From IMG/VR virus record IMGVR_UViG_3300022865_000557, positions 1 to 64,000 of that record: 64,000 bases of DNA, one strand, 5' to 3'. Of the stretch, positions 1,544-35,788 are shown in pieces. The number at the start of each line of letters is the position of its first letter. Positions within the stretch are counted from its first letter, which is position 1. The notes under the pieces were generated by a model. The model was not told the DNA's origin and ran no database searches. It saw only the letters and a program-made list of their open reading frames with translations. The stretch is from a virus. A program made the position numbers and the translations under genes.

Positions 1544-2590
1544 ATGTTTACACAAAATCTAAAACGTATTGGCTTTGCATGTAAGTACTTGGATCCTGAT
1601 CAAACGCAGAAGAAAAAAGTACTTGAAGAGATTCAGCGTCCATTCAATACCAAGTCAACTACTGTGTCCTGGCTAGATAGGCAAACACGTGATGTCGCAG
1701 AACAACGACTGTGGGATATTATGGTACACAACATACAGTCGTATTACAACCTAATAGAATATGTAGGAGGATTACCTGATGAGCTACGGATGGTCAGACT
1801 TGGCAGTGATTGTCTTCCAGTATACACTCATGATAAATGGTCTTATTACTGGAGGAATCCTGATGTACGTGAGTACTGCTCAACTGCGTTTGCGAAAGTC
1901 GGTGACTTGGCTCGCCTTTTGGATGTGCGGATTAGTTTTCATCCTGGCCAGTTTACTGTTCTTGCAAGCGATAACCCGGATATTGTACGTCGCAGTATAG
2001 AAGAGTTTGAGTACCACACTGACATGGCCAGATGGATGGGCTTTGGTAAACAGTTCCAGGACTTTAAATGTAATGTGCATATATCAGGTAGGCAAGGTCC
2101 AGATGGTGTAAGACAAGCATACAAAAAACTTAGCCCAGAAGCACGTAACATAATCACCATTGAGAACGAAGAAAACTCGCATGGACTTGATACTTGTCTT
2201 GAACTAGCAGACCTTTTACCTATTGTGTTGGACATACATCATCATTGGTGTAGAGAAGGTGAGTACATTGATCCAAGTGACGAAAGAGTTAAACGTGTAG
2301 TGGACAGTTGGCGTGGTGTCCGCCCAACCATGCACTACAGTTACAGTCGTGATGAACACTTACCTGATAACTTCGAACATGATGTGTTACCCGACATGAA
2401 ATTATTATTAGACACAGGGTACAAAAAACAAAAACTGCGAGCTCATAGCGATTTCTATCCTAATCAGACTGTGAATGCATGGGCACTGAGTTTCCACGAT
2501 AGGTTTGATATCATGGGTGAGTCAAAGATGAAAAACTTGGCAAGTTTTGCCTTACATAATCAACATAAATATACACATGAAAACTTATAG
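1544..2590 (+). CDS. uvsE: UV damage endonuclease (UvdE/UvsE family)
   Basis: 348 residues, full length for the family. These TIM-barrel, metal-dependent enzymes nick DNA 5' of UV photoproducts and some other lesions, starting alternative excision repair. Recognisable segments are RIGFACKYLD at the start, an RLGSDCLP strand, the SFHPGQF metal-site motif near residues 126-132, TIENEE (about 206) and LDIHHHW (about 230). It would protect the phage genome in sunlit water. The start is fixed by a perfect promoter ending 6 nt upstream. The 3' end overlaps the next gene by 14 bp. Confidence 0.93.
   Translation: MFTQNLKRIGFACKYLDPDQTQKKKVLEEIQRPFNTKSTTVSWLDRQTRDVAEQRLWDIMVHNIQSYYNLIEYVGGLPDELRMVRLGSDCLPVYTHDKWSYYWRNPDVREYCSTAFAKVGDLARLLDVRISFHPGQFTVLASDNPDIVRRSIEEFEYHTDMARWMGFGKQFQDFKCNVHISGRQGPDGVRQAYKKLSPEARNIITIENEENSHGLDTCLELADLLPIVLDIHHHWCREGEYIDPSDERVKRVVDSWRGVRPTMHYSYSRDEHLPDNFEHDVLPDMKLLLDTGYKKQKLRAHSDFYPNQTVNAWALSFHDRFDIMGESKMKNLASFALHNQHKYTHENL
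2564..2571 (+). promoter_or_regulatory. T4-type late promoter CATAAATA
   Basis: CATAAATA inside the last codons of uvsE, 5 nt before the ATG at 2577. The T4 late start site lies about 6 nt after this box, which would put +1 on the A of the ATG. Confidence 0.5.
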
Positions 2591-3259: not shown

Positions 3260-4822
3260 ATGAATACTATACTTGGCCGCATGGCTTCCCTTAAGAATGA
3301 TACACTATCCGGTTTAACAGTTGCACTAGCATTAGTTCCAGAAGCAGTTGCTTTTGCATTTGTTGCAGGAGTTGGACCACTGGTAGGACTTTACGCCGCT
3401 TTTATTGTAGGATTAATCACAGCAGTTATGGGCGGTAGACCCGGAATGATCAGTGGAGCAACAGGAGCACTAGCAGTGGTTATGGTGGCACTGGTTGCGA
3501 ATCACGGTGTTGAATATTTGTTTGCCACTGTGGTTCTCATGGGCATGATTCAGATACTTGCAGGCGCACTCAAAGCAGGTAAACTGATACGCATAGTACC
3601 TTACCCTGTTATGCTGGGTTTTGTTAATGGACTTGCTATTGTTATCTTCCTAGCACAGTTAAAACAGTTTGGTGTAGATGGTGAACCTGGATGGTTAGCC
3701 AACACATTCCTAGCAGGATCAATTGTTGACGTAGCATGGTTACAAGGATCAACCATGTACTTGCTGTTGGCTCTGATTGGTGTAACCATGTTGATAATTC
3801 AGTACTTGCCACGACTAACAGGAGCAATACCTTCGTCACTGGGAGCAATACTGGTTGTGTCTATTTTGGTTTGGGCATTTGCGCTGGACACAAGAGTAGT
3901 AGGAGACATTGCAAGTATCAGTGGCGGATTACCTAGTTTCCATATACCAGCAGTTCCTTTTAACTTCGAAACACTTATGATTATTTGGCCTTACTCAGTT
4001 GTGTTGGCCGCTATAGGATTGATTGAATCTTTGCTCACACTTCGCCTAATAGATGAAATGACACAAACACGTGGGCGTGGCAACAAAGAGTGTGTAGCGC
4101 AAGGTGTTGCTAACACTGTTACAGGGTTCTTTGGTGGTATGGGTGGTTGTGCAATGATTGGACAGAGCATGATCAACATCACATCAGGCGGACGTGGACG
4201 TTGGTCTGGTATAAGTGCTAGTCTGTTCCTGCTGTTGTTTATACTAGCGGCGGCACCACTTATCGAACAGATACCAATTGCGGCACTGTTGGGTGTTATG
4301 TTTATTGTGGTAATTAAAACATTTGAATGGTCCAGTTTTCGTATAATCAAACGTGTACCACGTAGCGATGCATTTGTGTTGATAACTGTGAGTGCTGTTA
4401 CAGTGTTTACTGACCTGGCATTTGCTGTTATGGTTGGTGTTATTATAAGTGCATTGGTATTCAGTTGGCAACATGCCAAACACATTAGTGTTACAGCACG
4501 TGAGAATCACTACGGTAGTACAGTATACGCAGTGCATGGTCCTTTGTACTTTGGATCAGTAACATCATTCTTAGAAGGCTTTAATCCTAGCAAGGATAAC
4601 AATCATGTTGTGATTGATTTTGCTGACAGCAGAGTTATTGACCACTCAGGACTAGAAGCAATTGATACACTAAGCGAACGTTACATAAGCGCAAACAAAA
4701 AACTATCCCTAGTGCATCTCAGCCCAGACTGCAAGCAGTTGTTAGAACGTGCAGGCAATCTAGTTGAAATAAATGTTATCGAAGATCCTAACTACTTTGT
4801 AGCAGAAGACAAACTGGACTAA
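3260..4822 (+). CDS. SulP-family inorganic anion transporter with STAS domain
   Basis: 520 residues, within the usual size of bacterial SulP carriers. The first 400 or so residues hold about ten or more hydrophobic helices. Family signatures include an early [19 protein letters not shown] segment, a [13 protein letters not shown] segment and a [20 protein letters not shown] segment. A cytoplasmic STAS domain fills about residues 425-515 ([19 protein letters not shown]). Relatives move sulfate, bicarbonate or dicarboxylates; the substrate cannot be read from the sequence. In a phage this would be an auxiliary metabolic gene, acting in the inner membrane to raise sulfur or carbon supply. It appears intact and has its own late promoter. 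Confidence 0.92.
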
Positions 4823-11947: not shown

Positions 11948-11964
11948 TACACTACACACCTAGT

Positions 11965-11990
11965 AAAAGGGCCTCTGGGCCCTTTTCTAG
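11965..11990 (+). terminator. Rho-independent terminator
   Basis: AAAAGGGCC, loop TCTG, GGCCCTTTT, directly after the gene at 11606. Confidence 0.85.
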
Positions 11991-12004
11991 TAAATACAAG
12001 TTAT

Positions 12005-12262
<258 letters not shown>

Positions 12263-12267
12263 AACCA

Positions 12268-12297
12268 GCAGGGCTTTCGGGCCCTGCTTTTTCTTTA
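12268..12297 (+). terminator. Rho-independent terminator of the tmRNA gene
   Basis: GCAGGGC (12268-12274), loop TTTCGG, GCCCTGC (12281-12287), then TTTTTCTTT. Confidence 0.88.
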
Positions 12298-12312
12298 GTT
12301 CTAGGATTTAAA

Positions 12313-12789
12313 ATGGCTATAGCGATGCAATCATTACCATATGTTTATAAACTACCCGATGGTACATATATTCACGTTACTATGCGACAGTATGGCGGTA
12401 TTGCGTTAAGTGGAGAAGCACTTGAGGACTTTAACAGTGACATGGCTAGATTAAACGTAGTAGAAAAGGCCCATTTAGGCAAATACCAAGTACAAAGAGA
12501 AACAATAGAAGGAACCGTTAACATAAACGGACAGTCTTACCCTAAAGTACCACTATTAAAATCTACGTATCCTAATGAATCAGAGTTGCCAGACTTCAGT
12601 GATGATTACTTTAGTATTATGTGGAAATGGGGTACTATAATGACACAAGACCCCAATATTAGGTACCATGCTCCAGGAGCATCAGGTAATAGTTACGTCA
12701 ATGAAAAAGATCCCTGCATCAAAGAAGTTGGCACATATGGCGACAAGCATAAAATGTGTACATGGTCAACTATTACTAATGTACAGTAA
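12313..12789 (+). CDS. Unknown protein, possibly structural
   Basis: 158 residues, beta-rich in look (YVYKLPDGTYIHVTMRQYGG) with many Tyr, Asn and Pro. An AGGA site lies 8 nt before the ATG, just after the tmRNA terminator. No family recognised. Together with 12833 it precedes a radical SAM gene, but its size and composition do not resemble a peptide precursor. Confidence 0.55.
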   Translation: MAIAMQSLPYVYKLPDGTYIHVTMRQYGGIALSGEALEDFNSDMARLNVVEKAHLGKYQVQRETIEGTVNINGQSYPKVPLLKSTYPNESELPDFSDDYFSIMWKWGTIMTQDPNIRYHAPGASGNSYVNEKDPCIKEVGTYGDKHKMCTWSTITNVQ

Positions 12790-13277: not shown

Positions 13278-14483
13278 ATGAATAAAACTTTCTGTATCCT
13301 TCCTTGGACGCATTTCTTTCACGACGCTACCGGTAAAGTCTCGCCCTGTTGTAATGCTAATTGTAGCAGAACGGACGGCGATCAAACCTCTGATTACGGG
13401 AACATGCGAGATTATGATACTCACATGGACATAATGAATCAGGACAACTTTAATACGTTACGACTTAATATGTTGGAAGGTAAAGAGACTACTGAATGCC
13501 AGCCCTGTTACGACATAGAAAAGCATGGTGGAAAAAGTTTTAGACAAAGCAAGAACACAATGTTGGATCAAATGATCACCATGGACGAGATTGAAGAAAT
13601 GACCAATCCAGATGGTAGTCTCAAAGACTTTAACATGCGATATTGGGACATTAGGTTTAGCAACGTATGTAATCTAAGTTGTCGTATGTGTGGTCCAGAA
13701 TACAGCCATACCTGGGCAAAAGAAGTTGATAAACGATTCAATGGTAAACACATAGTCAAAGCACACGAGTCAGAAGAATGGTCCGACATGATCAGTAAGT
13801 ATGGCCCATTGGATGAGTTATATGACATATACTTTGCTGGTGGTGAAGTTATGTTCCAGAAAGAACACTGGCAGATGCTGGATCACCTAATAGACATTGG
13901 TAAAACAGATGTTATGGTGATGTATGTTACCAATTTAACCAAGTTGGATTACGATGGATACAAGTTACTAGACTACGTACCCAAGTTCCGCGACGTGACA
14001 TTTACTGTTAGTATGGACGGCACAGGCGACCTATTGGAGTATATTAGGTGGGGTAGCAAATGGGACCAGATAGTTAAGAATCTAGATACTGTTAACAATT
14101 TGCCTAACGTACACTTGCGAGTAAATCATGTTACCATGTGGTACAATGTTCTTGCATTACCTAAAACGTTAGACTTTTTGTATGGTAACGGTTATCTCAA
14201 AGAACCGTACCAATTGGATCTATGCATTGCACAAGAACCTGAGAATCATGTGGGTGCTCTACCTGAGGATCTCAAATTAGTAGCAATAGACAAAATAAAG
14301 CATAGCACGTACTATGTCAATGGATTGTTAAAAGACAAACTAGATGCAATATGCAATGCAATGATGACTGTGGAATATCCTTTACCAATCGAACATACCG
14401 AGACCTTAGACACACGTCGCGGTTGTAATATCGTAGACGTTCTGCCAGAGATTGAACCTTATTACTTAATTGGTGAAAATTAA
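13278..14483 (+). CDS. Radical SAM protein 1 with N-terminal SPASM/twitch-like Cys region
   Basis: 401 residues. The core motif NVCNLSCRMC gives the three 4Fe-4S ligands C131, C135 and C138, and a YFAGGEV segment near residue 190 matches the GGE SAM-binding motif. Ahead of the core is a Cys-rich region: FCILPW (C6), VSPCCNANC (C24, C25, C29) and ECQPC (C74, C77), followed by GGKSFRQ. That resembles a SPASM or twitch auxiliary-cluster domain, which normally sits after the core. Such enzymes modify peptides or small molecules by radical chemistry; the substrate is unknown. Three paralogues with the same order lie at 22711, 30002 and 34631. Confidence 0.88.
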   Translation: MNKTFCILPWTHFFHDATGKVSPCCNANCSRTDGDQTSDYGNMRDYDTHMDIMNQDNFNTLRLNMLEGKETTECQPCYDIEKHGGKSFRQSKNTMLDQMITMDEIEEMTNPDGSLKDFNMRYWDIRFSNVCNLSCRMCGPEYSHTWAKEVDKRFNGKHIVKAHESEEWSDMISKYGPLDELYDIYFAGGEVMFQKEHWQMLDHLIDIGKTDVMVMYVTNLTKLDYDGYKLLDYVPKFRDVTFTVSMDGTGDLLEYIRWGSKWDQIVKNLDTVNNLPNVHLRVNHVTMWYNVLALPKTLDFLYGNGYLKEPYQLDLCIAQEPENHVGALPEDLKLVAIDKIKHSTYYVNGLLKDKLDAICNAMMTVEYPLPIEHTETLDTRRGCNIVDVLPEIEPYYLIGEN

Positions 14484-22476: not shown

Positions 22477-22714
22477 ACCTTTGCTTAGATTAACTGTGTA
22501 CGCGGCCTTACTAGACTTAGTAAGTGACCCCGATTACTATTACCACAGCTCAGTTGGTAAAGAATATAGTCACTTTTCGGACAAAGGCAAGCAAGCAATT
22601 GTGGACTTTGTTGAAATCTTTGCTCATACTATGTTAGAAGTTAAGCATGAAGAAGACATAGAACGAAGCAAGGGTATTTTGTTAAGCGAACTAAAAGGTA
22701 AACATGACTATTAA
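22469..22714 (+). CDS. Small protein of unknown function
   Basis: 81 residues from the ATG at 22469, which overlaps the previous stop. Acidic and helical (KQAIVDFVEIFAHTMLEVKHEEDI). Its stop overlaps the convergent radical SAM gene by 4 bp. No family recognised. Confidence 0.5.
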   Translation: MDKPLLRLTVYAALLDLVSDPDYYYHSSVGKEYSHFSDKGKQAIVDFVEIFAHTMLEVKHEEDIERSKGILLSELKGKHDY

Positions 22715-23865
22715 ACTTGATATCTTTTAGCTATATTATAGAATTCAGGCATATAGTCCTTTAGACTTATATTTTTCAATCGATCTTGTTCCTGCAGTTC
22801 CTTAATAGCCAAACGGAAGTTAGCCAAGTCTTTTCCCCCTTGGACCTTGGGTATAGAAGAAAGATCTATACTATTTTTTACCTCTATAGGTAGTGCATAT
22901 GGAGAGAAGTAAGGAGGATCGAAAACCATATTATGATTGAAAGGTAACTTCTGACTGTTGAACCATTCAACAGTTTCTTTATAGTACATAACGTTTACAT
23001 TACTAACTAGGTAACTTACACTCAACATATAGTTTAGTTCTCTAAAGAATTTAATATTATCAAGCAGTACTGACCACTTCAACGGATGCCGCATATATTC
23101 AAAGCGTTTTTCTATACCGTCTATGCTGAGGCATATATTAACATTTCTAAACTGTGACAATATATTTTTTTGATCATCAGTCAGCACAACACTACCGTTA
23201 CTAACCAAACTTATAAAACAGTTGGTATTATTGTGCTTTAATAGTTGTTCCAATGCCTGAAAGTTTTTCTTCTCTAATAGAGGTTCGCCTCCAACAAATG
23301 ACAACATTACTAGATCTTTGTAATTGATATCATCAAACACATTTTTTGGTACAAAGTTAATGTAGGTTTCTTTTTGTTGTGCTTTACCTTTTAACCATTC
23401 TAAATGTTCCGACCAAACTTTAGCACCTGCATTATCATCTGGGTCCAGACTACGCAATCTTTCCTGGGTTTCGTTTAACAAATATGATCCATCGTCACTT
23501 CTGAGGTTGGCCCAAAGACTACTGGCAAGACCATTACAAGTTACACAAGTGCTATTACAAAGATTGGATGTGTGCAGTTTAACGATTCTGGTGCTGTAAT
23601 TGTCGTCTCTGCATTCAGCTTCAACGGCATTGATATCTTTGTCTGCATAGAAGTCAAAGATCTCATTTTTAATTTGTCTATCACTCTTAGCACCTCGATC
23701 TTCTAAGTGCCAACATTTACTACAGGCGGAGCTACGCTGGCCACCCAGCATGTCACGTTTTACTTGTTCGACATTGGTTCCTGTAGGTAATAGACAACAA
23801 GGAGTAGTCTCGGGCTTCTTGAATTCTTTGGCATAAAATGGTAAAACACAAAAGTAGTTATTCAT
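22711..23865 (-). CDS. Radical SAM protein 2 with N-terminal Cys region
   Basis: 384 residues. The cluster motif NLCNSTCVTC supplies C103, C107 and C110; LSFVGGEPLLEKKNF is the GGE motif. The N-terminal auxiliary region has FCVLPF (C6), TPCCLLP (C23, C24) and ACSKCWHLEDRGAKSDRQ (C48, C51), the same layout as radical SAM protein 1. No C-terminal Cys cluster is seen. It lies alone on the minus strand with a perfect TATAAATA box 8 nt before its ATG, so it is probably expressed late. Substrate unknown. Confidence 0.87.
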   Translation of the reverse strand: MNNYFCVLPFYAKEFKKPETTPCCLLPTGTNVEQVKRDMLGGQRSSACSKCWHLEDRGAKSDRQIKNEIFDFYADKDINAVEAECRDDNYSTRIVKLHTSNLCNSTCVTCNGLASSLWANLRSDDGSYLLNETQERLRSLDPDDNAGAKVWSEHLEWLKGKAQQKETYINFVPKNVFDDINYKDLVMLSFVGGEPLLEKKNFQALEQLLKHNNTNCFISLVSNGSVVLTDDQKNILSQFRNVNICLSIDGIEKRFEYMRHPLKWSVLLDNIKFFRELNYMLSVSYLVSNVNVMYYKETVEWFNSQKLPFNHNMVFDPPYFSPYALPIEVKNSIDLSSIPKVQGGKDLANFRLAIKELQEQDRLKNISLKDYMPEFYNIAKRYQV

Positions 23866-26060: not shown

Positions 26061-26753
26061 ATGAATTATGTATTTGATGTGGACGGCACACTTACCCCTA
26101 GCCGTAGTACAATGTATGGCCCATTTAAGGGTTGGTTCCTGGATTGGATCAAACACAAGAACGTGTACTTGATCACCGGAAGTGATTACGCTAAAACAGT
26201 AGAGCAGATTGGTGAAGATGTGGCCCACAGTGTGAACGCAGTTTACAATTGTGCTGGTAATAGCATATATGTACGTGGACAACTGGTTCACAAAAGTGAC
26301 TGGCGCATAGGCGGAGATCTTGAACTATTTTTAAACGAATGGCTCGAATATAGCGCATATCCGACCCGTACAGGCACACATATTGAACACAGGATAGGTC
26401 TGTGTAACTTTAGTGTAGTAGGGCGCGGAGCAGACAAAACACAACGTACAGACTATGTAAAATGGGATACAGACAACGGCGAGCGGTATGAAATAGCAGA
26501 AGCCATAACCAAGATGTTCCCGGACATAGATGCCACAGTAGCAGGTGAAACAGGCATAGACATTTACCAAAAAGGCAAAGACAAAGCTCAGGTTGCTGAT
26601 GTGCTGTCGCCGTTTGTGTTCTTTGGTGACAAGACCGACCCAGGTGGCAATGACCATACCATTAGTTTACGTGCAGAAAAAGTTCACAGTGTGACCAGCT
26701 TTAGTGACACGTGGGAGATATTGCGTCTCAACTACTCTACAGAAAATACGTAG
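26061..26753 (+). CDS. HAD-superfamily hydrolase, phosphomannomutase-like
   Basis: 230 residues. The HAD motif FDVDGTLTPSR gives the catalytic Asp pair (D6, D8); YLITGSD is motif II, KGKDKAQVADV carries the motif III Lys and FFGDKTDPGGND is motif IV. The middle EHRIGLCNFSVVGRGA resembles the substrate cap of eukaryotic-type phosphomannomutases (NVSPIGR). It may interconvert or dephosphorylate hexose phosphates for surface sugar synthesis. Known to occur in large phages. Start set by a promoter 6 nt upstream. Confidence 0.78.
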   Translation: MNYVFDVDGTLTPSRSTMYGPFKGWFLDWIKHKNVYLITGSDYAKTVEQIGEDVAHSVNAVYNCAGNSIYVRGQLVHKSDWRIGGDLELFLNEWLEYSAYPTRTGTHIEHRIGLCNFSVVGRGADKTQRTDYVKWDTDNGERYEIAEAITKMFPDIDATVAGETGIDIYQKGKDKAQVADVLSPFVFFGDKTDPGGNDHTISLRAEKVHSVTSFSDTWEILRLNYSTENT

Positions 26754-26819: not shown

Positions 26820-26840
26820 GTGTTAGAGACGTTCTAACAC
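26820..26840 (+). promoter_or_regulatory. Stem-loop in the pqqA leader
   Basis: GTGTTAGA, loop GACGT, TCTAACAC: a perfect 8-bp stem 31 nt before the pqqA ATG. It is followed by GATTATG, not a T-run, so it is not a terminator. A TACAAT box at 26799-26804 may be the -10 of a weak promoter that would start the RNA just before the stem. Confidence 0.5.
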
Positions 26841-26871
26841 GATTATGAAACAACCTCAGAGGAGAATTACT

Positions 26872-26943
26872 ATGTGGACAAAACCAGAATATACAGAAAT
26901 GCGTTATGGCTTCGAAGTGACAATGTATTTTGCTAACCGCTAA
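26872..26943 (+). CDS. pqqA: PqqA, precursor peptide of pyrroloquinoline quinone
   Basis: 23 codons with an AGAGGAGA ribosome site about 8 nt upstream. It starts [11 protein letters not shown] and ends [11 protein letters not shown]; both halves match proteobacterial PqqA almost residue for residue (WTKP-x-Y/F-T-D/E-x-R-x-GFEVTMY). The Glu and Tyr that PqqE cross-links to build PQQ are present with the required spacing (E15-V-T-M-Y19). No pqqB, C or D is visible nearby, so the host would have to supply the pathway unless genes lie outside the window. Five radical SAM proteins, FNR and cytochrome c are in the same genome. The call rests on a short but highly specific peptide. Confidence 0.93.
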
Positions 26944-26966: not shown

Positions 26967-26995
26967 AAAAAGTGCTCACTTCGGTGGGCATTTTT
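26967..26995 (+). terminator. Rho-independent terminator after pqqA
   Basis: AAAAGTGCTCAC, loop TTCG, GTGGGCATTTTT, with two G-U pairs; 24 nt after the pqqA stop. Confidence 0.75.
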
Positions 26996-27025
26996 ATTGA
27001 CATTGGGTTTTGAAATAACGATTGG

Positions 27026-27033
27026 GATAAATA
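27026..27033 (+). promoter_or_regulatory. T4-type late promoter GATAAATA
   Basis: GATAAATA exactly 5 nt before the ATG of the HNH gene at 27039. Confidence 0.45.
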
Positions 27034-27038
27034 AATGT

Positions 27039-27509
27039 ATGAAACATATACATCACATTATTCCAAAATATCTAGGCGGCACTGACGATCCCGGAAACCT
27101 AGTAGAACTCACTGTAAACGACCACGCAGAAGCACACCGTAAGTTATATGAAGAACACAATAATTGGCAAGACTATTGCGCATGGCAAGCATTATCGGGT
27201 CGAATAGGCAAAGAGGAAATACTACGTATGAAACAAGGAATGGCAAACAAAGGACGCAAACGGACACCTGAACAACTGAAACGTATGTCAGAAGCACAAT
27301 TGAAACGTGTCGCAAGAAACCGTGCCGACGGAACACTAGAACGTACTAGAAAGAAGCAAAGTGAAGCCCACAAAGGTAAAAAGAAATCCCCAGAGCATAT
27401 GAAGAATTGGTCCGAGTCACGTAAGGGACACAAAGTCAGTGAAGACACCCGTGAAAAAATTAGGAAAACTTTGGCAGAAACTAGAGCCAAATTGGCTTTA
27501 CAAAAATAG
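27039..27509 (+). CDS. HNH homing endonuclease with NUMOD3-type repeats
   Basis: 156 residues. An N-terminal HNH domain (IHHIIPKYLGGTDDPGNLV, then NDHAEAHRKLY) is followed by basic DNA-binding repeats of the NUMOD3 kind (KGRKRTPEQLKRMSEAQ and KKKSPEHMKNWSES and GHKVSEDTREKIRK). Such free-standing enzymes cut cognate DNA lacking the gene and so spread themselves, often carrying flanking DNA along. It sits directly after pqqA. The ATG at 27039 is preferred over an upstream TTG. It appears intact. Confidence 0.85.
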   Translation: MKHIHHIIPKYLGGTDDPGNLVELTVNDHAEAHRKLYEEHNNWQDYCAWQALSGRIGKEEILRMKQGMANKGRKRTPEQLKRMSEAQLKRVARNRADGTLERTRKKQSEAHKGKKKSPEHMKNWSESRKGHKVSEDTREKIRKTLAETRAKLALQK

Positions 27510-30001: not shown

Positions 30002-31186
30002 ATGAAAAAAACAAATTTGCATTGCGCCCTGTCTCATATGAACATGGCCATCCAAAATGAGACCGACTACTGTAGTTGTAACGTCAACACAGAGAGTTGG
30101 AAAGACAATCAACATGATGTTATGAGAGTACCCACGTCTCCACCAAAAACAGCGTGGAACAGTTACACAAGGAAAATGATTAAAATTGCATTAGACAAGG
30201 GAGTTAAGCACCCTGGATGCAGTCCCTGTTGGCAAGCTGAAGATGCTGGTCGTGTATCGGTCCGACAACAGTTTAATTTGGCACTAGACGGAATACAACC
30301 TTTAGAGAATCAACCCAGATCCATTATATTAAAACCAGGAAACGTGTGTAACATGGCTTGCCGTATGTGCAACCCTGCTACTAGCACCAGGTGGTATCAA
30401 GATGCATACAAGTTAGAAGAACCTGATGTTGACTACAACGAGTACACAAAGAAATTTGAAATAATTAGAAACAGTTTCGGAAAACAAAACACTGAATTTT
30501 GGGATACTCTTAAAGAATGGATACCTGAGTTACGTGTGATTTACATTTATGGCGGGGAACCATTCATGAATCCGCAAACCTGGGATTGGTTAGAGCATGG
30601 TATTAAAGTAGGCGCCGCTAAAGATATATACATTGGTTTAACGACCAACCTAATGATATGGAATGAAAAATACTTAGATATTTTAAAACAATATAAAGCA
30701 GTTGATTTAAACGTAAGCCTAGACTCATCGGATGCAACAGAAATGGAATATGTTAGGCACTTAGCAGATGCAGATACCTTGTTCAGAAATGGCAAAAAGG
30801 TAAATGATTATTTTGCAAGTTACGATAATGTGTCTCCATGTATAACGTATACACTAACATCATTGAACATGCACAATATAGATTATCATGCGCAACGACT
30901 AAAAGAATTGACTGGAATAGACAAGTTGATATTCAATAATGTGTATACTCCCGAGATCTACGACTTTAGACACTTACCAAACCCAATCAAAGAAGAACTA
31001 AAAAGTGAAATTAAAGACCCAGAAGTAAACAGCATAATAAATCAAATTATCCCAGGGTGTGATAAACTGTGGCCTGAATTTTGTGCGCATACAGACAAGT
31101 TAGATGCAATACGAGGGCAAAGTTTTCGGGAGGCTTTTCCGGAGTGGTGGGCTAAGTTAGAACCATATTGGTATAACTATGAGTAA
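30002..31186 (+). CDS. Radical SAM protein 3 with N-terminal Cys region
   Basis: 394 residues. NVCNMACRMC supplies C116, C120 and C123; IYIYGGEPFMNPQTW is the GGE motif, and LNVSLDSSD a later SAM-binding strand. The N-terminal auxiliary region has C8, DYCSC (C24, C26) and PGCSPCWQAEDAGRVSVRQ (C73, C76), like radical SAM proteins 1, 2 and 4. The next gene, glycosyltransferase-like, overlaps it by 8 bp, so the two may act on the same product. It has a leaderless-type promoter. Confidence 0.87.
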   Translation: MKKTNLHCALSHMNMAIQNETDYCSCNVNTESWKDNQHDVMRVPTSPPKTAWNSYTRKMIKIALDKGVKHPGCSPCWQAEDAGRVSVRQQFNLALDGIQPLENQPRSIILKPGNVCNMACRMCNPATSTRWYQDAYKLEEPDVDYNEYTKKFEIIRNSFGKQNTEFWDTLKEWIPELRVIYIYGGEPFMNPQTWDWLEHGIKVGAAKDIYIGLTTNLMIWNEKYLDILKQYKAVDLNVSLDSSDATEMEYVRHLADADTLFRNGKKVNDYFASYDNVSPCITYTLTSLNMHNIDYHAQRLKELTGIDKLIFNNVYTPEIYDFRHLPNPIKEELKSEIKDPEVNSIINQIIPGCDKLWPEFCAHTDKLDAIRGQSFREAFPEWWAKLEPYWYNYE

Positions 31187-31759: not shown

Positions 31760-31849
31760 GGAAGTGTGGCCGAGTGGCTTAAGGCGGGAGATTACTAATC
31801 TCTTGTACGTGCAAACGTACCGTGGGTTCGAATCCTACCACTTCCGCCA
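31760..31849 (+). tRNA. tRNA-Ser with anticodon ACT
   Basis: 90 nt with encoded CCA. Acceptor GGAAGTG/CACTTCC, D-arm GCC/GGC, anticodon stem GGAGA/TCTCT with loop TTACTAA, long variable stem GTACGT-GCAA-ACGTAC and T-arm GTGGG/CCTAC. The long variable arm and G73 mark it as tRNA-Ser. The anticodon reads ACT, not the usual GCT. Confidence 0.9.
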
Positions 31850-31879
31850 AATGTTTTAACAAGATACAATGGAGATAGT

Positions 31880-32035
31880 ATGACAGTTAATAAGAAGAAC
31901 AGCCCATTAACATATGAATCAGGCAAGCTAAGACTCGGTCCATTAAGCACAGGAAAACTAGAAGAAATGTTGAAAACTTGTAGACCAAGACACAAGAACA
32001 AAATTATTAACGAGATAGCAAAGAGAAGTAAATAA
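31880..32035 (+). CDS. Small basic protein of unknown function
   Basis: 51 residues, basic (MTVNKKNSPLTYESGKLRLG ... KNKIINEIAKRSK), between two tRNA genes, with GGAGA about 6 nt before the ATG. No family recognised; similar short basic proteins occur in T4-like marine phages. Confidence 0.55.
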   Translation: MTVNKKNSPLTYESGKLRLGPLSTGKLEEMLKTCRPRHKNKIINEIAKRSK

Positions 32036-32041
32036 ACGCAT

Positions 32042-32118
32042 GCTGGTGTAGCTCAGTTGGTAGTAGCGCCTGCTTTGTAAGCAGGATGTCGGGAGTTCGA
32101 GTCTCTCCTCCAGCACCA
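32042..32118 (+). tRNA. tRNA-Thr (TGT)
   Basis: 77 nt with encoded CCA. Acceptor GCTGGTG/CTCCAGC has one T-T mismatch at position 6-67. Anticodon stem CCTGC/GCAGG with loop TTTGTAA gives anticodon TGT; T-arm GGGAG-TTCGAGT-CTCTC. Confidence 0.88.
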
Positions 32119-32123
32119 ACCTT

Positions 32124-32198
32124 GTCCGGTTCGTCTATCGGTTAGGACTCGGGATTTTCATTCCCGCAAGAGGGGTTCGACTCCCCTACCGGATGCCA
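32124..32198 (+). tRNA. tRNA-Glu (TTC)
   Basis: 75 nt with encoded CCA, 5 nt after tRNA-Thr. Acceptor GTCCGGT/ACCGGAT, anticodon stem CGGGA/TCCCG with loop TTTTCAT, anticodon TTC, T-arm GGGG-TTCGACT-CCCC. Confidence 0.9.
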
Positions 32199-34630: not shown

Positions 34631-35788
34631 ATGGCAGAGCTCAACAAAGAGTTCTTCTGCCCAGCTCCCTTTGCAGGAGGTTACGTTGACGTAAAGAAGA
34701 TAGCATATCCTTGCTGTAAAATACGTGTAACAGAATTTGAAAATGATCCAGGTTGCGACTTAACTAAAAACAACCTATCAACAGCATATCATAGTAAATC
34801 TTTTAAAGATCTGAGGGAACAGTTCGAAAACAATGAGAAACCTGATCAATGTCAGGAATGTTGGCGTGCCGAAGACGCAGGTTGTGAGAGTGAAAGAAAT
34901 CACCTAACTAAGTTAATCACTACTGATACAAACAGTTTGAATTCGGCTAACGTAGGACTTAAAAAGTTACAAATAGTGCCGAGTATCACCTGCAATTTCA
35001 AATGTAGAATTTGCGACAGTAATTTTAGTTCAGCTATTGCTATGGAAGAAATAAAATTTGCAGAGGCCGCAAATAAAGAAAAACTTTTATTAAATTTGCA
35101 AAATCGCAGTCTAATAGACATAGAATACACTAAAAGAATATTGCAAGACAGTTTATCTGGTTTGACAATGTTACAAGTATTGGGTGGCGAGCCGACACTG
35201 ATGAAAAACTTGCCAGAGCTACTAGAGTATATAATTGCACAAGGAGATCACAAACACATAGACCTTGCAATTAACACCAATGGCAGTATTTGGTCTGACC
35301 GTTTAACGGAAATACTACAAAAATTTAAAAGTTGTAAAATGCTAATTAGCATAGATGCTTTTGGTAAAAGATTTGAAGATCAACGTGGGGGTTGTTGGCA
35401 AGATATTGAAGATAATTTCGACAGATGGTTGACTGTTCCAAACGTTTCTGTAATAATAACAGCAACAGTCAGCATACAAAATGTATTATATGTAGATGAA
35501 ATTGTAGACTTTGTAAAAAGTAAAGGAGTTTTTGTAGGTTGGAATTATGTAGATGACCCTAGTGAATTATCCATAGATAACTTAACACAGACGGCAAAAG
35601 ACTTGGTATACTTGAAGTACATAAATCACGAATCTAACGAGTTGCATGGTATTGCTACTCGGGTAATGCAAACTCCAGCAGTGTCTGGACAGAAATTTAT
35701 TAGCCTAATGGACCTTTACGATTTACGTAGAGGTACTAACTTTAAACAATCACATGGAGAGATATATGATGCAATGTCAGCTAAGTAG
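34631..35788 (+). CDS. Radical SAM protein 4 with N-terminal Cys region
   Basis: 385 residues. SITCNFKCRIC supplies C121, C125 and C128; LQVLGGEPTLMKNL is the GGE motif. The auxiliary region has FFCPAPF (C10), YPCCK (C28, C29), C42 and DQCQECWRAEDAGCESERN (C74, C77, C85). It is followed 19 nt later by a cytochrome c gene, so the pair is probably one transcript. Same order of domains as radical SAM proteins 1-3, with low sequence identity, so they are old paralogues rather than recent copies. Confidence 0.87.
   Translation: MAELNKEFFCPAPFAGGYVDVKKIAYPCCKIRVTEFENDPGCDLTKNNLSTAYHSKSFKDLREQFENNEKPDQCQECWRAEDAGCESERNHLTKLITTDTNSLNSANVGLKKLQIVPSITCNFKCRICDSNFSSAIAMEEIKFAEAANKEKLLLNLQNRSLIDIEYTKRILQDSLSGLTMLQVLGGEPTLMKNLPELLEYIIAQGDHKHIDLAINTNGSIWSDRLTEILQKFKSCKMLISIDAFGKRFEDQRGGCWQDIEDNFDRWLTVPNVSVIITATVSIQNVLYVDEIVDFVKSKGVFVGWNYVDDPSELSIDNLTQTAKDLVYLKYINHESNELHGIATRVMQTPAVSGQKFISLMDLYDLRRGTNFKQSHGEIYDAMSAK

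Follow-up and report, generated by a model that had tools for sequence, protein, structure and literature searches.

A stand-alone pqqA gene of 23 codons was found in the window (the whole stretch of 64,000 nucleotides analyzed here), and it probably acts as an auxiliary gene of the phage that supplies a consumable substrate for the PQQ enzymes of the host. The IMG/VR record from which the window comes spans 92,840 bases (92.8 kb), and no other gene of PQQ synthesis was detected in it. Relatives of the gene occurred widely in viral sequences, including phages recorded with methylotrophic hosts, which is in line with the methanol dehydrogenases that an earlier note on this DNA had named among the possible beneficiaries.

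The pqqA gene and its signals

The features of the window are listed in Table 1. The peptide scored far above the cut-offs of both PqqA profiles, namely Pfam PF08042 (37.8 bits, E 1.8e-9, cut-off 21.1; profile positions 1-19 of 19) and the NCBIfam equivalog model TIGR02107 (45.9 bits, E 3.4e-12, cut-off 20). Translation and alignment placed G13, E15, and Y19 in the peptide, giving the Glu-x3-Tyr pair preceded by Gly-x; we take E15 and Y19 to be the residues that become PQQ. The earlier note had described a nearly canonical PqqA with E15-x3-Y19 and had suggested a profile search for PqqA likeness; both profiles agree with that description. The length of 23 codons compares with approximately 22-30 residues for the PqqA family, and the 92,840-base record had no further match to the PqqA family. 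Counted from the first Met in all six frames, the window contained 197 small ORFs of 20-30 codons. The motif GxExxxY was found six times over the six frames, and only the instance in pqqA sits in a short ORF. Together with the profile scores, this makes a chance origin of the ORF very unlikely.

Table 1. Positions of pqqA, its signals and neighbors, and other features of the window.
Feature	Position	Strand	Remarks
pqqA	26872-26943	+	23 codons, ATG start, TAA stop; translation and PqqA profiles
Shine-Dalgarno AGAGGAG	26858-26864	+	7 nt 5' of the pqqA ATG; from sequence
Intrinsic-terminator-like hairpin	26968-26995	+	UUCG loop and T run; 24 nt 3' of the pqqA stop
Leader stem-loop GTGTTAGA-GACGT-TCTAACAC	26820-26840	+	Perfect 8-bp stem
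Phosphomannomutase-like (Pfam PMM) protein	26061-26753	+	Upstream neighbor; not part of PQQ function
HNH/homing-endonuclease-like ORF	26997-27509	+	Downstream neighbor beyond the hairpin; not part of PQQ function
NF033640 N-twitch radical SAM ORF	13278-14483	+	Profile families
NF033640 N-twitch radical SAM ORF	22711-23865	-	Profile families
NF033640 N-twitch radical SAM ORF	30002-31186	+	Profile families
NF033640 N-twitch radical SAM ORF	34631-35788	+	Profile families
Permuted Betaproteobacteria-type tmRNA	11952-12319	+	Tag ANENSYFEEFALAA; 140.9 bits (beta_tmRNA model)
UvdE UV endonuclease	1544-2590	+	
SulP sulfate-permease/STAS protein	3260-4822	+	
tRNA cluster (Ser, Thr, Glu)	31760-32198	+	Three genes
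ORF of 1173 aa	45580-49101	+	

The ribosome site that had been claimed for the gene was confirmed immediately ahead of its ATG. The claim of a terminator of its own also held, since the hairpin behind the gene folded at -14.9 kcal/mol (z -4.4; 0/200 shuffles as good); it was absent from the list of a consensus terminator scan. As for the leader stem-loop, the perfect stem was present, but the leader containing it folded no better than chance (z -1.5; 16/200 shuffles as good). A role of this element as a riboswitch or repeated element was rejected, because no match was obtained there in an Rfam search at the gathering threshold and the motif occurred only once in the window. On the minus strand, a T run follows the stem-loop, which could therefore be a terminator for that strand. 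The promoter scan listed no promoter-like site in the pqqA leader, and the T4-type late promoter TATAAATA had two matches in the window, versus 5.6 expected, with none near pqqA. The gene may share one transcript with the upstream phosphomannomutase-like gene. Judged from its sequence, the ORF is a genuine pqqA gene equipped with signals for translation and termination.

The phage record and its other genes

The DNA polymerase encoded by the record had 50% identity with its counterpart in Sinorhizobium phage Phosso (469 kb) and 43% with the enzyme of Agrobacterium phage Atu_ph07 (490 kb); the record also encoded a clamp loader, a DNA ligase, and members of further phage families. In view of this kinship and gene content, the 92.8 kb record most likely represents part of the genome of a jumbo, T4-related phage. 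Other phage-borne genes in the window encoded a SulP sulfate-permease/STAS protein, a UvdE UV endonuclease, and a cluster of three tRNAs, and the 1173-aa ORF matched nothing in the phage collection except, at 27% identity, part of a Phosso S8 family peptidase.

Neither the window nor the rest of the record had a tblastn match to pqqB, pqqC, or pqqD, and the PqqE profile had no match in the 92,840 bases; the gene thus appears to be a lone precursor gene and not part of an operon. A weak pqqE tblastn match (64 residues, 23343-23152, E 0.001) fell inside one of the radical SAM ORFs. The four radical SAM ORFs in Table 1 were considered as PqqE candidates and rejected; they belong to NF033640, and PqqE was not among the families listed for them, a listing that covered 25 of 30 families for one of the four. 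A fifth radical SAM-like ORF lies further along the record (L007, 9747-11312). Repeats of PQQ dehydrogenases were not found in the 92,840-base record, and the record contained no viral methanol dehydrogenase beside pqqA of the kind known from Lake Baikal viruses.

Relatives in metagenomic viruses

The earlier note had proposed searching viral contigs for short PqqA-like ORFs. In IMG/VR, at least 599 stretches matched and at least 580 contigs encoded a PqqA relative. The best 80 of these, ranked by peptide similarity, were kept; adding the genes of the window and of seven phage records gave a set of 88 genes, of which 77 were distinct at the DNA level and 52 at the protein level. W2, P5, R11, G13, F14, E15, M18, and Y19 were invariant in all 77 distinct genes, and pooled pS and pN were 0.66 and 0.15 (pN/pS approximately 0.23) for loci chosen by peptide similarity. 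The IMG/VR loci had been picked by patterns over residues 2-9 and 12-18, with Y19 outside the patterns, and low pN and the invariant residues are therefore partly built in. The excess of start and stop signals is independent of this peptide-based selection. A Shine-Dalgarno-like 5-mer preceded 86 of the 88 testable viral pqqA genes (89 loci, the 88-gene set and locus L302, minus one too near a contig end), compared with 57/890 random ATGs in the same loci. In addition, the 60 nt behind the gene folded below -12 kcal/mol in 58/88 viral pqqA genes, compared with 92/440 random stretches.

When the 89 viral loci were grouped by common immediate neighbor, approximately 33 contexts were obtained; grouping by any common ORF placed 79/89 loci in one cluster and was rejected as too permissive. 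A major head (capsid) protein gene adjoined pqqA in 22/89 loci, directly upstream on the same strand in 19 and convergent in three, and one further locus had a head protein gene 1.4 kb from pqqA. These counts came from three head-protein queries in a set that includes near-duplicate loci, and the neighboring head proteins belonged to two families, phrog_267 and phrog_138. Other neighbors in representative loci were RegA, Hsp20, single-strand binding protein, tail fiber, and several proteins of unassigned function. The many contexts and the position beside capsid genes suggest repeated, likely independent acquisition of pqqA by phages and, in part, high late expression. Of 80 records related to the window phage by their DNA polymerase, 50 were searched, most of them short fragments, and pqqA was detected in one, a 157 kb record with a different peptide (MWTTPTAADMRFGFEITMYIANR) and other neighbors; a fixed trait of the jumbo group is thus not supported.

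Within flanks of up to 3 kb per side, often shorter, pqqB-E were found in none of 88 viral loci (including the 80 from IMG/VR and excluding L302). A PQQ dehydrogenase was found in none of the 50 pqqA-bearing virus records searched out of 80. PqqE above the cut-off was found in none of 51 virus records, one of which had two matches far below the cut-off; since these 51 records may be fragments, many of them short, the absence of PqqE and dehydrogenase is not proof.

Relatives in named phage records

A tblastn search with the window peptide against 50,697 phage records returned 12 matching records, and the P19250A peptide as a second query returned the same 12. Eight were Methylophilales phages (MEP301, MEP401, MEP402, Venkman, and four Melnitz records) and a ninth was Methylophilaceae phage P19250A; a podovirus from Manatee Spring and two records named Acinetobacter phage MD-2021a (H7 and H8) made up the remainder. 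H7 (L004, CAKLQF020000010.1) shows bacterial sequence containing ppk and pqqBCDE and is apparently mislabeled. MEP401 and MEP402 are filed under Zobellviridae and Melnitz under Kyanoviridae, and Venkman and P19250A are reported to share a genus-level cluster (PMC8163748), so that the nine Methylophilales/Methylophilaceae records represent at least three groups. They give no rate of occurrence, as MEP431-434, Venkman EXVC038S, and others listed in the taxonomy had no match here. None of the 12 was named a Pseudomonas phage; PqqAs of Pseudomonas reach 83% identity with the query and should be detectable at these tblastn settings.

The PqqA label was present at the match in 0/9 Methylophilales/Methylophilaceae records; five had no annotation there and the four Melnitz records had "hypothetical protein." In Melnitz EXVC044M (L003, 5961-6056) and in the Manatee Spring record (L005, 2067-2195; MW202481), the annotated ORF lies on the strand opposite pqqA and is apparently a wrong call.

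Bacterial relatives and host clues

In a bacterial scan of one genome per species, at least 579 stretches were confirmed, and the best 80 were kept. Among these 80, the PqqA nearest to that of the window was from UBA2675 (one residue different), followed at two residues by SAT189 and SRR3933379 as well as by several betaproteobacterial PqqAs, TMED22 among them. UBA2675, SAT189, and SRR3933379 are Gammaproteobacteria MAGs of 3.5-3.8 Mb. In all three, pqqBCDE lies directly behind pqqA, and each genome encodes two PQQ alcohol dehydrogenases above the family cut-off (24-27 whole or partial matches per genome when E values up to 0.001 are counted), which accords with the earlier suggestion of a host that has pqqBCDE. 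Their pqqA genes differed from that of the window at 9-13 of 69 bases, and no recent transfer is therefore visible.

Identity between viral and bacterial peptides was seen in 4/89 viral loci, among the bacterial peptides compared. The P19250A peptide was identical to the product of seven pqqA copies in three 1.3 Mb genomes, the DNA showing 3-8 silent changes in 69 nt, and the Manatee Spring peptide was identical to that of one copy in a 1.35 Mb genome. Their size and peptides suggest that these small genomes belong to Methylophilaceae of the LD28/OM43 type. Three genomes (G162, G228, and G257) had three pqqA matches each. Bacterial loci L116 and L152 carried three and two pqqA copies, respectively, in a row directly before pqqBCDE; in these loci, the precursor dose is raised in bacteria too.

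The tmRNA of the window is of the permuted Betaproteobacteria type. Its nearest counterparts among 399 genomes of the order of TMED22 were in G301, G183, and G062 (73-75% over approximately 170 bases), none of which was among the 62 pqqA-positive genomes of the 300 searched in this order. Weaker tmRNA matches (69%) were found in the pqqA-positive genomes G119 and G224. Among the nine genomes with the nearest PqqA (G001-G009), for which part of the first-look candidates was scored, none had a beta-type tmRNA above the cut-off. The nearest tmRNA matches were thus in genomes without a detected pqqA, and the tmRNA is not decisive as a host marker. An OM43 phage is reported, in the Melnitz paper (PMC9004378), to carry a tmRNA of the alphaproteobacterial type. 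The host clues for the window phage disagree, PqqA pointing to the Gammaproteobacteria MAGs and tmRNA to betaproteobacterial genomes.

Proposed role and alternative explanations

With regard to the criteria for an auxiliary metabolic gene, pqqA lies in a genuine phage genome and is a homologue of a host metabolic gene, a bacterial PqqA one residue away being encoded before pqqBCDE. PqqA is consumed at one molecule per PQQ, and the PQQ enzymes are reused. In the proposed mechanism, the phage gene would provide PqqA as the peptide from which PQQ is built. Binding by PqqD and PqqE of the host would lead to cross-linking of E15 with Y19, and a host protease, PqqB, and PqqC would complete PQQ. The PQQ would load periplasmic quinoprotein alcohol dehydrogenases that pass electrons to respiration; in the methylotroph hosts of known isolates, the beneficiary may be the methanol dehydrogenase XoxF. 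If the phage shuts down host expression, PqqA would run out first, because it is used one for one while the PQQ enzymes persist, and a 72-base pqqA would be a cheap means of keeping PQQ coming. We infer that the gene is expressed, that the host processes its product, that PQQ rises, and that the phage benefits; the host and the beneficiary enzyme named here are likewise putative.

The earlier note had stated that PqqA supply is limiting in some bacteria, and reports on bacteria favor this in part. Methylophilaceae are reported to carry 3-12 pqqA copies, the other pqq genes being single-copy with one exception (PMC4109929), which fits precursor supply as the scaled part. In OM43, the most abundant transcript is reported to be that of the quinoprotein gene xoxF (PMC5120137). 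Against the assumption, pqqAB raised PQQ by only 29% in Acetobacter, compared with approximately eightfold for pqqABCDE (PMC7936290), and single-gene overexpression in Gluconobacter ranked pqqB > pqqA > pqqD > pqqC > pqqE for PQQ (cited in PMC7936290), so that the precursor alone may give little.

A variant of the supply explanation, whose odds do not exclude those of the general one, is that the host is a heterotroph and that PQQ serves quinoprotein dehydrogenases for alcohols, aldehydes, or sugars instead of methanol. The nearness of the window peptide to those of UBA2675, SAT189, and SRR3933379 and the two PQQ alcohol dehydrogenases in each of these genomes speak for it. However, nearness over 23 residues is weak, several betaproteobacterial PqqAs are equally two residues away, these MAGs had no beta-type tmRNA above the cut-off, and the phages with recorded hosts infect methylotrophs; we consider this variant possible but doubtful. 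The peptide might also act as a decoy or brake, its excess tying up PqqD/PqqE or serving as a signal, and thereby lower PQQ or block a defense or a rival phage. Such an action is compatible with the finding that no enzyme accompanies pqqA, through which the peptide could act only via host enzymes. Yet E15 and Y19 are both kept in 77/77 viral genes, which a decoy would not need, and the viral peptides identical to bacterial ones are presumably normal substrates, making a decoy very improbable.

Capture of pqqA from a host as a passive passenger without selection would account for its sporadic occurrence in the jumbo group (one of 50 relatives' records), but the frame, the ribosome site, and often a 3' hairpin are maintained in divergent phages, and pN/pS is low, albeit for loci selected by similarity; we regard this as highly unlikely. 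Mislabeled records do exist, the bacterial stretch under the name Acinetobacter phage MD-2021a being an example, so that misassembled bacterial DNA, or else a chance ORF, had to be considered. The window gene lies in a phage record without pqqB-E, and pqqA is also present in phages whose hosts are named and whose records are described as complete genomes, which contradicts an artefact for the family; an artefact can practically be discounted. Supply of PqqA to the PQQ enzymes of the host thus remains the preferred explanation.

Methanol oxidation of the OM43/LD28 type needs PQQ and matters for aquatic carbon turnover. The presence of the same pqqA in viruses of methanol-eating bacteria suggests that viruses keep the fuel-burning enzymes of the infected cell supplied. 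If phages routinely supply PqqA, methanol flux would be under viral control via a 72-base gene skipped by gene callers, and other peptide substrates, such as mycofactocin-like precursors, may hide in phages likewise. A broader proposition, for and against which we see the balance as even, is that stand-alone pqqA is a common and systematically overlooked signature gene of phages of PQQ-dependent, mainly methylotrophic, bacteria. Phages would have gained it on many occasions as a "consumable-substrate" auxiliary gene, often positioning it after the major capsid gene to secure high late output, and would use it to control the supply of the methanol-oxidation cofactor in seas and lakes; its short length alone would have hidden it from annotation, and it could help to assign hosts to unassigned viruses. 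Since phages and hosts have been isolated, cultures could show whether PqqA supply limits PQQ during infection.

Comparison with known systems

Extra pqqA copies are known from methylotrophs, including a methanol-grown PQQ production strain with five copies (PMC9851590). These stand-alone copies raise the precursor dose, as the phage gene would, and typically accompany a single set of the remaining pqq genes, as far as reported; unlike the phage gene, they are chromosomal and not viral. Virus-encoded pqqA, pqqD, and pqqE are listed for reservoir sediment viromes in a catalogue framed by phosphorus cycling (PMC13188868), which, like the present analysis, names pqqA as a viral gene.

The Methylophilales phages and P19250A resemble the window phage in having a stand-alone pqqA of 23-24 codons with a ribosome site and peptides 65-74% identical to that of the window; they differ in phage group and gene neighbors. 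PQQ appears once in the main text of the Melnitz paper, as a medium ingredient, with no phage pqqA (PMC9004378). Searches for PQQ found no phage pqqA in the main texts of the MEP301 (PMC8024684) and Venkman (PMC8163748) papers, nor in that of PMC10580990, which deals with phages infecting FZCC0133, the host on record for MEP401 and MEP402. In the open-access literature searched, no report of pqqA in OM43/LD28 phage isolates was found.

The closest precedent is that of the T4-like methylotroph virus populations VP_266 and VP_139 of Lake Baikal, which are reported to encode PqqA (Coutinho et al., 2020; PMC7678222). As proposed here for the window phage, PqqA was read there as an auxiliary metabolic gene, one aiding PQQ-dependent methanol oxidation. 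In the Baikal viruses, PqqA is described as accompanying a methanol dehydrogenase of viral origin, and the companion population has radical SAM proteins, whereas no PQQ dehydrogenase was found in the window record or in the 50 pqqA-bearing records searched, and the window phage belongs to the jumbo group. The idea of phage-borne PqqA has thus been in print since 2020 (PMC7678222); the new part is apparently how common, unannotated, and precursor-only viral pqqA is.
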